A stretch of 45,425 nt of DNA from Candidatus Poseidoniales archaeon (lineage in GTDB: Archaea; Thermoplasmatota; Poseidoniia; Poseidoniales; Poseidoniaceae). The DNA lies in assembly GCA_003602575.1 (NCBI GenBank), contig QQRY01000041.1:1-45425 (forward strand). Direction: 5' to 3'. The position numbers and the translations under genes are program-made. The notes under the pieces were generated by a model. That model ran no database searches and was not told the origin of the DNA. It was given only the letters and a program-made list of their open reading frames with translations. Below, one piece after another: positions 8,678 through 45,342 of the stretch (the first letter of the stretch is position 1; each line of letters starts with the position of its first letter).

Positions 8678-9541
8678 TTAATTTAATTCACTTAGAACTT
8701 TCATTAAGTCTACATTTTCATCTATATCATGAACTCTGATAATATCTATATCATTGTAGAAGGCAAAGGCCGACGTCGCTAAAGTTCCTGGTAATCTGTC
8801 TTCAGTTTTTTGTTTTCCAGTAATTTGTCCTATCATCGATTTTCTTGAGACTCCAAGTAATGTTGAGAAATTAGATTGGGTAAGCAAATGTATATTTTTC
8901 ATTAGTTCTATATTGTGATTCAACAACTTTCCAAATCCAATTCCTGGGTCAATAACAATCAATTCTTTAGGATGGCCAGAATCTAGAAGTTGCTGTACTT
9001 TACTAAATAAAAATGAACTTACTTCATCGACACAATTCTCGTATTCTGGGTTCTCTTGCATTTTTTCTGGTTCACCTTGCATGTGCATTACACATACAGC
9101 ACATCCAGTTTCAATGACGACATCAATCATTTCTGGGTCACTAAATCCTGATATGTCATTTATCATTTCAGCCCCTGCTTTAATCGCTTCTCTTGCTACT
9201 ACCGCTCTTCTAGTATCGATCGAAATTAGACCTTCAGGTCTTATTTCTTTTAGGGATTTTATTGCTGGAATTACTCTTCTCAGTTCCTCATCAATATCAA
9301 CAGGTTCTGCTCCAGGTCTAGTAGATTCTCCACCTATATCCAACCATGTTGCTCCATAATCCCATATTTCGATTCCTCTTTTTATGGAATCTTCTAATTG
9401 GAATCTTCTGCTTTCACTATGAAATGAATCAGGAGTTATATTTAGAATCCCCATAATTATGCAAGGATTATTTTTTTGTCTAGAAATATTTCTAAAAATA
9501 TAATGACGGCGATTTTCTTGAGGTCCTAAGTTATCGCCCAT
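8678..9541 (-). CDS. folP: Dihydropteroate synthase
   Basis: A 287-aa DHPS joining pterin pyrophosphate with p-aminobenzoate to form dihydropteroate in folate synthesis. Seen: IMGILNITPDSF (29-40), LDIGGESTRPGAEP (67-80), INDISGFSDPEM, CAVCVMHMQGEPEKMQ, IDPGIGFGK, LLGVSRKSMIG and the C-terminal RVHD. All pterin- and pABA-site signatures are present. Loop 1 reads PDSFHSES instead of the usual PDSFSDGG. The N-terminal 28 residues are a polar extension. The family is the bacterial-type DHPS, which fits the FolB-like and pterin dehydratase genes elsewhere in the window. It is convergent with the TraB gene (no gap) and divergent from a membrane protein gene. Confidence 0.92.
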   Translation of the reverse strand: MGDNLGPQENRRHYIFRNISRQKNNPCIIMGILNITPDSFHSESRRFQLEDSIKRGIEIWDYGATWLDIGGESTRPGAEPVDIDEELRRVIPAIKSLKEIRPEGLISIDTRRAVVAREAIKAGAEMINDISGFSDPEMIDVVIETGCAVCVMHMQGEPEKMQENPEYENCVDEVSSFLFSKVQQLLDSGHPKELIVIDPGIGFGKLLNHNIELMKNIHLLTQSNFSTLLGVSRKSMIGQITGKQKTEDRLPGTLATSAFAFYNDIDIIRVHDIDENVDLMKVLSELN

Positions 9542-20238: not shown

Positions 20239-20565
20239 TCATTTGATTTGATTGATCTTAGCAGCTAAGTAGAAGTCTGATTCAGCTAAACCATCTATTT
20301 TATGAGTCCAAATGCTAATTTTAACTCTGCCCCAGCCCAATTCAAAATCAGCATGATGTGCTTGTTGTTCACAAATTTCACCTGCTGAATTTACAAAATC
20401 CAATGCTGTTTGAAAATCATTAAATTCGAACTTTCGCTCTAGATGGTGGTCATCAACAACAATCCAATCATTTCCTAGTTGTTCAATTAAAGGAGTGATC
20501 TGTGATTTATTCAAAGGTGGAATCCCACCCTTACATGGTATGCATTCTTTGTTGTGAAGTGACAA
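20239..20565 (-). CDS. Pterin-4a-carbinolamine dehydratase
   Basis: A PCD/DCoH-fold protein (108 aa from the TTG at 20565). It dehydrates 4a-hydroxytetrahydropterin, or in other lineages serves molybdopterin metabolism. Seen: CIPCKGGIPPLNKSQI at the N-terminus, DWIVVDDHHLERKF, then the active-site segment QAHHADFELGWGRVKISIWTH, with both catalytic His pairs. The family's HHPD reads HHAD here. DFYLAAKIN closes the fold. The TTG start sits two bases after the previous gene's stop and matches the usual family N-terminus. An ATG at 20625 would add a basic 20-residue leader inside the upstream gene and is less likely. Confidence 0.85.
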   Translation of the reverse strand: MSLHNKECIPCKGGIPPLNKSQITPLIEQLGNDWIVVDDHHLERKFEFNDFQTALDFVNSAGEICEQQAHHADFELGWGRVKISIWTHKIDGLAESDFYLAAKINQIK

Positions 20566-20569
20566 AAAA

Positions 20570-21019
20570 TCAACCCCAAAGATGGGTATCGTCGGAGCCT
20601 TTGCTCTCTTTTTCGACCTTCTCATGTAGGTTTGAACGTCTCTTCATATCCTTTCTTTCAAAGGCCAGTAATTCTTTGTCATCTATGTATGCAGGTCTTG
20701 TATGCGCTACTAGGACTATTTTTACTATTACATCTCTTGCGATATAGTTATTCTTTCCTTCTTCACACAGAATCTCAATACTGGATTTTCCAGATGATAG
20801 TAGTCTTCCTCTAATCCAAGCATCCTTTCCTTCAATATCAACAAAGGCGCGAGCATCAAGTTGGACTTCGATAATGTCGTCTTTACGTAGTCCATGTCTC
20901 CTTTCTAGTAGGTCTCCACTATTAATTCTCTCAACATCTGATAAATTTGGAGAACCCATATCTTCCCAAAGAGGTACAGCCCATTTAGGTAGATTTACCC
21001 CACTCTTTTTCTTCGCCAT
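20570..21019 (-). CDS. Conserved-looking small protein, possible beta-barrel (Sm-like) core
   Basis: 149 aa, not recognised. After a basic N-terminus (MAKKKSG), residues 48-100 form a clear run of predicted strands: DIIEVQLDARAFVDIEG, AWIRGRLLSSGKSSIEIL, then YIARDVIVKIVLV. The layout recalls Sm/Lsm or other small RNA-binding barrels (Gly-Arg-Leu turn, Ile-Ala/Pro-Arg-Asp-x-Ile-Val-Lys-Ile end). This is only a pattern resemblance. The C-terminal 45 residues are highly charged and probably disordered. It is the first gene of a minus-strand group with pterin dehydratase and nitroreductase, and divergent from NOG1. Confidence 0.55.
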   Translation of the reverse strand: MAKKKSGVNLPKWAVPLWEDMGSPNLSDVERINSGDLLERRHGLRKDDIIEVQLDARAFVDIEGKDAWIRGRLLSSGKSSIEILCEEGKNNYIARDVIVKIVLVAHTRPAYIDDKELLAFERKDMKRRSNLHEKVEKESKGSDDTHLWG

Positions 21020-26979: not shown

Positions 26980-27333
26980 CTATTTTGACCATTCGGCTTC
27001 AACTACAGCCAATCCACCTTTGTGCGGTAGAGGTGCTTCAGGTTTCTCGATTCGTATCGAGATTTTATTTATCAATTGATTAGATTTTAATTTATCAATC
27101 ATCCTTTCTGCCATTGTTTCCATTAAACGAATTGGTTCAGTTTCTAGAAGAATTTCATCTATTGTTTTCTGCAAGTCTGCATAATTCACAGTCTTGCTTA
27201 AATCATCATGAATACTTCCTTTATTCAGAACTACCTTGATTGTTACAATAAACGGCTGCTCTTCGAGATGCTCAAAATCATAAGCCCCATGCTTTGCCAT
27301 TACGCAGTAATTTTCTAAGGAAATAGTGAACAT
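26980..27333 (-). CDS. folB: Dihydroneopterin aldolase-like (FolB family)
   Basis: 117 aa of the FolB tunnelling fold, expected to cleave dihydroneopterin to hydroxymethyldihydropterin for folate synthesis. Seen: ISLENYCVMAKHGAYDFEHLEEQPFIV (start of the fold with the conserved His-Gly and Glu), then KTVNYADLQKTIDEI carrying the active-site Tyr, and IRIEKPEAPL with the catalytic Lys near the C-terminus. The key residues are in place. ATG 27333 is preferred, since GAGTGAT lies just upstream and the family starts here; ATG 27355-27357 would add eight residues overlapping the parvulin gene. It is four bases from the parvulin gene. Confidence 0.88.
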   Translation of the reverse strand: MFTISLENYCVMAKHGAYDFEHLEEQPFIVTIKVVLNKGSIHDDLSKTVNYADLQKTIDEILLETEPIRLMETMAERMIDKLKSNQLINKISIRIEKPEAPLPHKGGLAVVEAEWSK

Positions 27334-27337
27334 ATTA

Positions 27338-27628
27338 TCACTCAGTATCTCTCTCATGAACCCAAATCAAATGGTAACCAAATTGAGTTTTTATCGGGTT
27401 TGAGGTAGAAGCTAAGGGTAATTGCCAGACTGCTTCATCAAACTCTCTGACCATCATTCCTTTACGGAACCAACCTAAATCTCCGCCCTTCTGGCTTGAT
27501 GGACATGTACTTTTCTTACGAGCCATTTTTTGAAAATCTTTCAACTTAGTGACTTTATCTTTAATCTGAATCGCTTCTGATTTTGAATTAACTAAGATGT
27601 GAGATGCCCATGCACTAGGAGCGACCAT
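27338..27628 (-). CDS. Parvulin-type peptidyl-prolyl isomerase
   Basis: 96 aa, a single stand-alone rotamase domain: WASHILVNSKSEAIQI, FQKMARKKSTCPSSQKGGDLGWF, MVREFDEAVWQLP, and IKTQFGYHLIWVHERD. This covers the complete parvulin fold, with its active-site His residues and Cys. No signal peptide or TM is visible, so it is a cytosolic folding helper like small archaeal parvulins. It is co-directional with and four bases from folB. Confidence 0.93.
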   Translation of the reverse strand: MVAPSAWASHILVNSKSEAIQIKDKVTKLKDFQKMARKKSTCPSSQKGGDLGWFRKGMMVREFDEAVWQLPLASTSNPIKTQFGYHLIWVHERDTE

Positions 27629-42188: not shown

Positions 42189-43430
42189 TCACTTTCCAAG
42201 TTCCTCTCGTTGTTCTTGGACGTGCCAAGGAACTGTTTCATAGACTTCAGTAAAAATGGTAGATGCTGGAGGGTAAGGTCCACTTGCTAGGTCTCCAAAC
42301 TCGCATGCTTCTTTGTAAGCAGTCATTACTTCGTCATCAATTTTCTTTTCAAGAGCAGCATGTTTCTTCTCATCCCAAAGTTTTGCTTCAATTAAATGTA
42401 ATTTGAGTCTTTCAACAGGATCTCCACCAGGCCAACATTCGAATTCATTGTCAGGCCTGTAAGCCGAAGGGTCGTCTGATGAAGAGTGAGCTCCGGCTCT
42501 GTAAGTATAAACTTCAATGTGAGTAGGTCCAAGTCCAGCGCCAGCACGTTCTCTTGCCCACTTGGTTACGCTGTAGAGAGCCAAGAAGTCATTTCCATCT
42601 ACTCTAAGCGATGGTATATCGTAGGCTAATCCACGTTCAGCGAATGTTCTTCCGCCGGTTGCTAGGTTTTTGTGAGTAGAAATAGCCCATTGATTGTTAA
42701 CGACATTCAGGATTACAGGAGGCTTAAATGTGGATGCAAAGTTCAGTGCATAATGGTAATCTCCTTGAGCAGAAGTACCATCGCCAAGCCATGAGATGCA
42801 AACTTCATCATCTCCTTTGTAAGCACTAGCCATAGCGACTCCCACCGCTTGTGAGAACTGTGTTCCTACAGGAGATGATATTGATATGAAACGCCCTTCT
42901 TTCCAAGTATAATGTACTGGCATTTGCCTTCCTTTGACATTATCTTCAGTATTTCCAATACAGTGACAAATCATGCTGACCATGTCTCTTCCTCGGACAA
43001 ATTGAGCACCAGGTTGCCTGTAAGACGGGAAAATCCAGTCTTGAGTTTCAAGTGCCATAGTTTGCGCAATTGCAATTGCTTCTTCACCAAACGAACGCAT
43101 ATAGAATGACAACTTACCAGTCCTTTGCATTTTCAACATTCTATCGTCAAATATTCTAAGCCTCATCATGTATTCCAAGCCTTGAATCATATCCTCAGTA
43201 CTTAATTTAGGATTCCATTCTCCCTTTGCTTTGTTATCATCATCCATTACTCGAATTAGTCCGGACGCATGATTGACAGTATCTTGTGAGTCACATTTTA
43301 GCGGGTCCGGACGATTCAAATCTTCTGGTTTTTCAGTGAATGAACCTCCAAAACTCGACTCATCTCCCGGCCTAAAGGGGGCAACTCCGATGGTGTAAGG
43401 AGTTGTTGCAATGGTCTTACGTTCCGTCAT
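42189..43430 (-). CDS. 2-oxoacid dehydrogenase E1 alpha, branched-chain type
   Basis: 413 aa ThDP-binding subunit. Seen: LSFYMRSFGEEAIAIAQTMA, GRQMPVHYTWKEG, ISSPVGTQFSQAVG, the ThDP motif WLGDGTSAQGDYHYALNFA to NNQWAIST, and AHSSSDDPSAYRP. The last matches the phosphorylation loop of BCKDHA (HHSTSDDSSAYR). These similarities favour oxidation of branched-chain 2-oxoacids from Val, Leu and Ile over pyruvate, though broad specificity is possible. An N-terminal region of about 70 residues is less conserved. It overlaps lipA by four bases (ATGA) and has a GAGGTGA ribosome site. Confidence 0.93.
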   Translation of the reverse strand: MTERKTIATTPYTIGVAPFRPGDESSFGGSFTEKPEDLNRPDPLKCDSQDTVNHASGLIRVMDDDNKAKGEWNPKLSTEDMIQGLEYMMRLRIFDDRMLKMQRTGKLSFYMRSFGEEAIAIAQTMALETQDWIFPSYRQPGAQFVRGRDMVSMICHCIGNTEDNVKGRQMPVHYTWKEGRFISISSPVGTQFSQAVGVAMASAYKGDDEVCISWLGDGTSAQGDYHYALNFASTFKPPVILNVVNNQWAISTHKNLATGGRTFAERGLAYDIPSLRVDGNDFLALYSVTKWARERAGAGLGPTHIEVYTYRAGAHSSSDDPSAYRPDNEFECWPGGDPVERLKLHLIEAKLWDEKKHAALEKKIDDEVMTAYKEACEFGDLASGPYPPASTIFTEVYETVPWHVQEQREELGK

Positions 43431-44455
43431 TGTTTCACCTCAGTTAGTCGAGACCTTAAGTGATGCCGGTCAAAGTTTAAATTATCAGAAATCAAAACAT
43501 GTGCCCCAGGCATACTTTCTTTATTTTCTGGGTCAATTAATTTTCGAAGTAAAAGTCCAGCCTTGAATGAAGAGCGAACAAAAGGTCCACTGGCAACGCC
43601 TAAGAATCCCAACTCAATTGCGATTTCAGCCCAATAGTCGTATAGTTCAGGCTCAGGAAATCGGTCGATAGCAAGGTGTTTACTGGATGGCGCAAGGTAT
43701 TGTCCTATAGTTAACAAATCTACATTGGCTGTTCTAAGTAACTTCATTGCTTCTACGATCTCTTCATCTGTCTCTCCAACTCCAACCATTAGAGAGGATT
43801 TAGTGATCATGTCAGGTCTAATCCTCTTTGCTTCCTCAAGAATCTTCAGTGATTGTGAAAAAGAAGCCCTCCTGTCTCTAACTTTTCTATCAAGTCTAGG
43901 CACACATTCAACATTATGAGCAAAAACAGATAGTGGACTTCCATCTAGTAGGCTTTCAAGGTCACCAATATCTCCTGCTAAGTCTGAACAAAGAAGTTCT
44001 AGGGTTAGATTTGGTTGACGTTCATGTACTGCTTGGATACACTTCTTGTAGTGAGATGAGCCACTGTCTTTCAGGTCATCTCTATTGACAACAGTAATCA
44101 CTACGTGCTTGAGATTCATAGATTCTACTGCGTCTGCTAGGTTTTCAGGCTCATCTTCATCTAACGGAGGTGGCGTTTTTATTGAACCAACAGCACAGAA
44201 TCTGCACCCACGGGTGCACTCTTGCCCTGCTACCATAAATGTAGCATCACCGCTTGACCAGCAATCATGTATGTTAGGGCAGCGGGCTTCTTGACAAACA
44301 GTGTGAAGTTTATTGTCCTTGACAGCGGCTTTAGTGTCATTGAATATGGCTTGTTGAGTTCCACTTGGCAATGTGGTTTTAAACCAAGAGGGTAGACGTT
44401 TTCTCTTCTTTGTTTCAACATTATTTCCAGCCATTGGAAGTTGTTTACCACTCAT
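43427..44455 (-). CDS. lipA: Lipoyl synthase
   Basis: A 342-aa radical-SAM enzyme inserting two sulfurs into octanoyl groups on E2. The N-terminal auxiliary cluster motif is CQEARCPNIHDC (C-x4-C-x5-C). The radical-SAM motif is CTRGCRFC (C-x3-C-x2-C), and GPFVRSSFKAG holds the C-terminal RSS that ligates the auxiliary cluster. All are intact. GGGAGGAC is a good ribosome site before ATG 44455. It is first in the operon, ahead of the E1 alpha gene it overlaps; it therefore appears made with its own substrate complex. LipB is encoded 12 kb away. Confidence 0.96.
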   Translation of the reverse strand: MSGKQLPMAGNNVETKKRKRLPSWFKTTLPSGTQQAIFNDTKAAVKDNKLHTVCQEARCPNIHDCWSSGDATFMVAGQECTRGCRFCAVGSIKTPPPLDEDEPENLADAVESMNLKHVVITVVNRDDLKDSGSSHYKKCIQAVHERQPNLTLELLCSDLAGDIGDLESLLDGSPLSVFAHNVECVPRLDRKVRDRRASFSQSLKILEEAKRIRPDMITKSSLMVGVGETDEEIVEAMKLLRTANVDLLTIGQYLAPSSKHLAIDRFPEPELYDYWAEIAIELGFLGVASGPFVRSSFKAGLLLRKLIDPENKESMPGAHVLISDNLNFDRHHLRSRLTEVKQ

Positions 44456-44595
44456 AACCCGTCCTCCCTGTTCAATCCTATGAGTTGCCTATCAAAAAGA
44501 TGTGCTAGTGTCCAATTTTGGAAATACAACCGAAAACATGGTTTACTACATGAATCAATACGAGAATTATTGAATCAATTACAATTGGAAAGTAT

Positions 44596-45342
44596 ATGCC
44601 GAAACCGGTAGTACTCATTACAGGTGCAGGAAAAAGAATCGGCGCAGAAGTATCTAAGCAACTTATGGAAATGGGATGGTATGTTCTAATTCATGTTAAC
44701 TCTTCTTTGGATAGTGCTAAGCAAATTCTGTTGGATTATTCCTCTAAATTTGGCACGGATGCGCCGGGAGATGTCCTGCAAGCAAATCTACTAGTTGACT
44801 CAGAAGTTAATGATTTGATTTCTCAAGTTTTAGCTCATTCAGCAGTCAAGGAATCAGGTGGTCTCTCTGGGCTAATTCACAATGCTTCAATCTATAGTTC
44901 GATAGATGTCGAGGAAGTTTCTATTGATGATTTGCAGAAAAATATGAAATTGCACGTAGAGGTTCCTTTCAAAATGACTCTCGGCCTATTAGATTGTTTA
45001 AAGGTCAAAAATGGTTGCGTTATAGGCATGGTTGATACTTCACTAGGGCGTGCTTGGAAGGGTCTCTCTCATTACACGGCCAGTAAAGCTGGATTGAGAC
45101 AATTGATGATCAATTTTGCAGGAGACTTCCATCCCGATGTCAGAGTTAATTGTATTGCTCCAGGTGCAATAATTTCTGCAGATTGGGAAGTAGAGCACTT
45201 TGCTAAGATAATTGAAGAAATCCCACTTGGTCGTTCTGGGCACCCCTCTGATATTGCTAAAGCAGTGTTATTTTTACTCAATTCACCTCATATTTCTGGA
45301 CAAGTCCTAAACGTTGATGGCGGTTGGAGTCTAAATCAATAA
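44596..45342 (+). CDS. PTR1/FolM-like pteridine reductase (SDR)
   Basis: A 248-aa short-chain dehydrogenase. The nucleotide-binding motif is TGAGKRIG (9-16), the variant (TG-x3-R-x-G) seen in pteridine reductases and FolM, and HNAS is at 95-98. The usual catalytic Ser is replaced by Asp147 (MVDTS), 13 residues before Tyr160 and Lys164 (YTASK). Leishmania PTR1 has the same Asp181-Tyr194-Lys198 arrangement, preceded by NMVD. The C-terminus ends GQVLNVDGGWSL as in NADPH SDRs. A reduced-pterin or dihydrofolate role is inferred and fits FolP, FolB and pterin dehydratase in the window. Other SDR roles, such as 3-oxoacyl reduction, remain possible. Confidence 0.75.
   Translation: MPKPVVLITGAGKRIGAEVSKQLMEMGWYVLIHVNSSLDSAKQILLDYSSKFGTDAPGDVLQANLLVDSEVNDLISQVLAHSAVKESGGLSGLIHNASIYSSIDVEEVSIDDLQKNMKLHVEVPFKMTLGLLDCLKVKNGCVIGMVDTSLGRAWKGLSHYTASKAGLRQLMINFAGDFHPDVRVNCIAPGAIISADWEVEHFAKIIEEIPLGRSGHPSDIAKAVLFLLNSPHISGQVLNVDGGWSLNQ

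Follow-up and report, generated by a model that had tools for sequence, protein, structure and literature searches.

A putative pteridine reductase of the SDR type beside lipA in Candidatus Poseidoniales that encode a conventional DHFR

Introduction

Pteridine reductases of the PTR1/FolM kind are marked by the cofactor motif TGX3RXG (PMC1971073, PMC13259868). The catalytic triad of Leishmania PTR1 consists of Asp181, Tyr194, and Lys198, and in the L. major enzyme Ser111 contacts the 2-amino group of the pterin while Phe113 stacks on it (PMC8996148). FolM and PTR1 are able to reduce dihydrofolate, and FolM and a Xylella homolog were tested and do not use oxidised pterins (PMC1971073). In bacteria that carry folA, FolM is taken to be a pterin reductase and not a folate reductase (PMC1971073, PMC13259868), and the synthesis of tetrahydromonapterin by E. 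coli and P. aeruginosa depends on FolX and FolM together, according to the accounts of Pribat et al. 2010 given in PMC5705918 and PMC13259868. The FolM of P. aeruginosa prefers dihydrofolate (PMC13259868), so the substrate of the SDR considered here is not readable from its sequence.

The published description of Ca. Poseidoniales recognizes two families and 21 genera (PMC6461757). The DNA analyzed here is a stretch of 45,425 nucleotides from a member of this order (hereafter, the window), in which the markers aRF1, aIF2-beta, and an archaeal-type class I Lys-tRNA synthetase score over their curated cut-offs. The genomes used for comparison belong to one order, two families (called here the source family, which includes the genome of the window, and the sister family), and 22 genera, and are about 1.1-2.3 Mb in size.

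Active site residues of the SDR

The SDR gene begins with ATG and encodes 248 amino acids according to the ORF call and its translation (Table 1).

Table 1. Coordinates in the window of the SDR gene, its diagnostic residues, and the genes discussed with it.
Feature	Position	Strand	Basis
DHPS	8678..9541	-	TIGR01496, 301 bits, above cut-off
Pterin-4a-carbinolamine dehydratase-like protein	20239..20625	-	PF01329, 93 bits
FolB, dihydroneopterin aldolase	26980..27357	-	TIGR00525, 76.1 bits, above cut-off; PF02152
lipA, lipoyl synthase	43427..44455	-	TIGR00510, 363.5 bits
lipA/SDR intergenic region, 140 bp, divergent	44456..44595		Divergent arrangement kept across the order
SDR, putative pteridine reductase type	44596..45342	+	ORF; PRK09135 best NCBIfam model; residue conservation in 57 relatives
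TGAGKRIG cofactor motif, residues 9-16	44620..44643	+	Aligned with references
Arg14 replacing SDR Gly	44635-44637	+	Matches Arg14 of TbPTR1 and Arg17 of E. coli FolM; FabG has Gly
Ser98 and Tyr100 of NASIY (residues 96-100)	44887..44895	+	Predicted pterin amino-group contact and pterin-stacking aromatic
Asp147 replacing catalytic Ser	45034..45036	+	Sequence and alignments
Tyr160 and Lys164 of YxxxK	45073..45087	+	Sequence and alignments

Alignment to references gives R14/S98/Y100/D147/Y160/K164 at six key positions of the SDR, R14/S95/F97/D161/Y174/K178 in T. brucei PTR1, and R17/S87/W89/D139/Y152/K156 in E. coli FolM. E. coli FabG has Gly/Gly/Thr/Ser/Tyr/Lys and differs from the SDR at four of the six. 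Asp147 precedes Tyr160 by 13 residues and Tyr160 precedes Lys164 by 4, the same spacing as in the triad of Leishmania PTR1 (PMC8996148). Ser98 and Tyr100 align with Ser111 and Phe113 of L. major PTR1, a hallmark that is absent from the initial annotation of the window. The SDR carries the TGX3RXG motif with its Arg, the Asp-Tyr-Lys triad, and the NASx[FYW] pocket of pteridine reductases, and it departs from FabG in having Asp147 for the catalytic Ser and Arg14 within the GXG cofactor motif.

These residues are highly conserved in an alignment of 57 rows from relatives, representing 56 distinct genes. T9, G10, R14, G16, S98, Y160, and K164 are invariant in all 57, position 100 is always aromatic (Tyr in 48, Phe in 9), and D147 is Asp in 56, the remaining row having an ambiguous X. 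Since the residues are invariant across the aligned relatives, the motif set is not a product of chance. The initial annotation had noted TGAGKRIG as a variant cofactor motif and Asp147, Tyr160, and Lys164 as lying at exact PTR1 spacing, and both the sequence and the 57 relatives bear this out.

Two further copies deserve mention. One, from a single-contig genome within the genus of the source genome, is interrupted by stops and a frame change (G011:C1:925088-925824) and is either a pseudogene or an assembly error. The other belongs to the source assembly, where a 3.4-kb contig, perhaps from a related strain, carries at its end an additional SDR fragment with 70% identity (G000:C58:3078-3374, locus L083).

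Similarity, phylogeny, and structure

Pteridine reductase PRK09135 was the top NCBIfam profile for the SDR, the best of 182 models, with a score of 177.7 bits that lies under the cut-off of 288 bits and hence below equivalog-level membership. It was followed by PRK09134 and FolM, all of them above the FabG models. A single-sequence search of the PDB ranked FabG at the top, and identity is ~25% to each of PTR1, FolM, and FabG. With equal identities to the three and FabG first in the PDB search, similarity alone is not decisive.

In the phylogenetic analysis that had been suggested along with the initial annotation, the SDR falls outside FabG. FabG-type sequences form a clade without the archaeal SDRs in two trees (support 100/99 and 100/98), and the archaeal SDR clade groups less firmly with a PTR1/gammaproteobacterial clade (80/78), a placement to which a sister relationship with FabG is an alternative that survives the AU test (p = 0.29). 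We therefore dropped phylogeny as the sole arbiter. Structure was dropped in that role as well, since most of the top PDB matches to the AF2 model (pLDDT 95.5) are TbPTR1 but FabG ties with it at the top. The residue set, its conservation, and the gene linkage described below support a pteridine-reductase-type SDR of the PTR1/FolM/PruA kind.

A conventional DHFR and the route to folate

It had been proposed in the initial annotation that the SDR supplies the reduced-folate step where no classical DHFR is seen. The absence holds for the window but not for the genome, in which the recommended whole-genome search for folA found a canonical DHFR over the Pfam cut-off (E = 4.3e-42); this was the first half of the outcome that the annotation itself had set against its proposal. 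folA lies directly downstream of thyA with a four-base overlap, and this adjoining pair speaks against an SDR that works for want of DHFR.

The same is true of the relatives. DHFR is found in 149 of the 165 genomes of the order and in 103/116 genomes of the family, and all 21 high-quality family genomes (completeness of 90% or more, contamination of 5% or less) have it. The 13 family genomes without DHFR are all without ThyA as well, which makes a missing region likely rather than loss of DHFR, and no ThyA-positive but DHFR-less genome was found among the 116. A missing DHFR as the reason for the SDR is ruled out by the presence of DHFR and ThyA. So is a ThyX that would make DHFR unneeded, as ThyX was found in 1/116 family genomes (G069) and not in the source genome. 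G069 has three ThyX-like matches and ThyA was not found in it; contamination or a virus is suspected.

GTP cyclohydrolase I is present in 19 of 21 genomes of relatives, the source genome included, and the presence of DHPS indicates that the organism makes folate. The conventional DHFR of this organism leaves no gap for the SDR to fill, and the SDR is probably not its folate-making step.

The locus in the two families

In the source family lipA, which has no part in the pterin pathway and is the first gene of a lipA-pdhA-pdhB-pdhC-lpd run, adjoins the SDR in 36 of 38 loci. No pterin gene is adjacent to the SDR in these 38 loci; the neighbors are lipA and the PDH genes and FolB is not among them, which rules out, for the source family, that folate genes cluster at this site. 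DHPS, a FolB-like protein, and a pterin dehydratase had been described as nearby. All three are in the window, but at distances of 35, 17, and 24 kb, respectively, and unclustered with the SDR. FolB is the probable upstream pathway partner of the SDR, and a link to the pterin-4a-carbinolamine dehydratase is uncertain.

The sister family has, at the same lipA-PDH locus, an SDR with the Arg, NASx[FY], and the Asp. The next gene downstream, in the same orientation, encodes a protein of 133-154 residues, and the one tested is FolB (PF02152, 54.5 bits, cut-off 31.8). The pair of SDR and FolB/FolX-family gene is found in 54 of 60 sister-family genomes; five of the six exceptions belong to genus g19 and have an SDR of the source type, and in the other the SDR is at a contig end. 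Where start codons are clear the two genes are separated by 0, 1, or -4 bases, and FolB is single-copy in nearly all sister-family genomes. The FolB/FolX-family gene that abuts or overlaps the SDR, seen at L172:8223-8627 and at 8 further loci, is without the KPxAP end of the source FolB and may encode an epimerase.

A similar linkage is seen in a control sample of bacterial SDR loci taken from one scan, in which FolB lies at most 3 kb from 23/47 SDRs of the Arg+Asp type versus 0/26 of those without the Asp (Fisher p = 3e-6, with related species that are not independent). This linkage to FolB outside the window is the best independent support for the pteridine reductase reading. Together with the pocket residues and the position outside the FabG clade, it upholds the view of the initial annotation that the SDR resembles PTR1 and FolM and is no ordinary FabG.

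Phylogenetic analysis places the SDRs of the source family and genus g19 in one clade, while the other sister-family SDRs fall in the PruA/Brucella FolM clade (97/92). A single clade for all archaeal SDRs is rejected (AU test, p = 0.001), which implies two pteridine reductase subfamilies at one chromosomal site (L172-L183 in the sister family, positions 43427-45342 in the window). Displacement in place, or an ancient duplication with different losses, would explain this pattern, and either way some pteridine reductase is kept at the locus.

Five of the PruA-like SDRs at the sister-family lipA locus (L173, L176, L177, L179, and L180) have YxxxR for YxxxK, an unusual change of the lysine. Three genomes that are about 90% complete or more (G007, G035, and G149) have DHFR, and searches of them found no SDR ortholog, FolB, or pterin dehydratase; either the three were lost together with a region that links them, or the assemblies are incomplete there.

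Proposed role of the SDR and competing explanations

We consider it probable that the SDR is an NADPH-dependent pteridine reductase that makes a tetrahydropterin from a dihydropterin, for which dihydromonapterin and dihydroneopterin are candidates. We infer its substrate, cofactor, and direction. GTP cyclohydrolase I and the epimerase/aldolase activity of FolB would provide the 7,8-dihydropterin substrate. By analogy with PTR1 (PMC8996148), NADPH would supply the hydride, Tyr160 would donate a proton that Asp147 relays from solvent, Lys164 would hold the nicotinamide ribose, and the nicotinamide and Tyr100 would sandwich the pterin. The reduction of folate would be left to the separate DHFR, with dihydrofolate a possible side or main substrate of the SDR.

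A physiological role as a second dihydrofolate reductase beside the canonical one is unlikely in our view. FolM and PTR1 do have this activity (PMC1971073) and the P. aeruginosa enzyme favors it (PMC13259868), but thyA and folA are side by side here, DHFR accompanies ThyA throughout the family, no genome was found with the SDR in place of DHFR, and ThyX was not found in the source genome. A FabG-like carbonyl reductase, which might act in acyl or lipoyl metabolism near lipA and the pyruvate dehydrogenase genes, is slightly less probable still. Such a role would fit the divergent position beside lipA-PDH that is kept across the order, the first rank of FabG in the single-sequence PDB search, and the sister relationship to FabG left standing by the AU test; against it are the Asp found in relatives for the catalytic Ser, the fixed Arg14, Ser98, and aromatic residue 100, the position of the SDR outside the FabG clade, and the occurrence of a different, PruA-like pteridine reductase with FolB at this site in the sister family.

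About as improbable is a true PTR1 that would salvage fully oxidised pterins in addition to dihydropterins. The catalytic set is that of PTR1, but identity to PTR1 is 27%, FolM and its Xylella homolog do not use oxidised pterins (PMC1971073), and the organism has the de novo genes for GTP cyclohydrolase I, FolB, and DHPS.

A dihydropterin reductase would call for an enzyme that uses its product. Aromatic amino acid hydroxylase (PF00351) was found in 0/116 family genomes, which rules out tetrahydropterin for phenylalanine hydroxylase. PruR-type pterin signaling was ruled out as well, PF00174 having a match in 1 of the 25 genomes searched and none in the source genome. Pterin dehydratase is conserved in the order (80/88 genomes); the hydroxylase was not found in the family searched. 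Proteins of this type have been linked to the metabolism of Moco (PMC3223725), which Poseidoniales synthesize (PMC6461757), so the dehydratase is no proof of a hydroxylase. With neither the hydroxylase nor a PruR-like protein found, the enzyme using the tetrahydropterin may be new. We tentatively suggest that this abundant planktonic archaeal order makes a free tetrahydropterin, for example tetrahydromonapterin, with a reductase from one conserved locus at which two subfamilies have replaced one another, for use by such an enzyme.

These archaea appear to combine a bacterial-type folate route that includes a normal DHFR with a tetrahydropterin-type reductase that occurs throughout the order. 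If the SDR makes tetrahydropterin, archaea that rank among the most abundant in surface seawater would have a new pterin-dependent process. The case also calls for caution in annotating such SDRs as DHFR substitutes from a single window.

Comparison with known systems

FabG shares with the SDR the fold, the Tyr-Lys pair, and a similar overall identity, but has Gly, Gly, Thr, and Ser at the four diagnostic positions and forms a supported separate clade. Trypanosomatid PTR1/PTR2 have all six key residues, their spacing, and the fold in common with the SDR at about 24-27% identity; PTR1 acts on oxidised pterins and folate. Pteridine reductases of the gammaproteobacterial PRK09135 type, such as that of Marinobacter (L086), have the same Arg14/Ser98/aromatic/Asp/Tyr/Lys set, are 36% identical, and are often encoded near FolB, but they form a clade separate from the archaeal SDRs, and the SDR scores below the profile cut-off. 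E. coli FolM, a dihydromonapterin reductase, is 24.5% identical and sits on a very long branch, with no close relation shown in the trees. It has the residue set of the SDR, with Trp at the aromatic position, and coexists with a normal DHFR. PruA and Brucella FolM (5bt9, 5tgd) belong to a clade apart from the source-family SDR, but they have the same motif set, and it is their relatives that stand at the lipA-PDH locus of the sister family.
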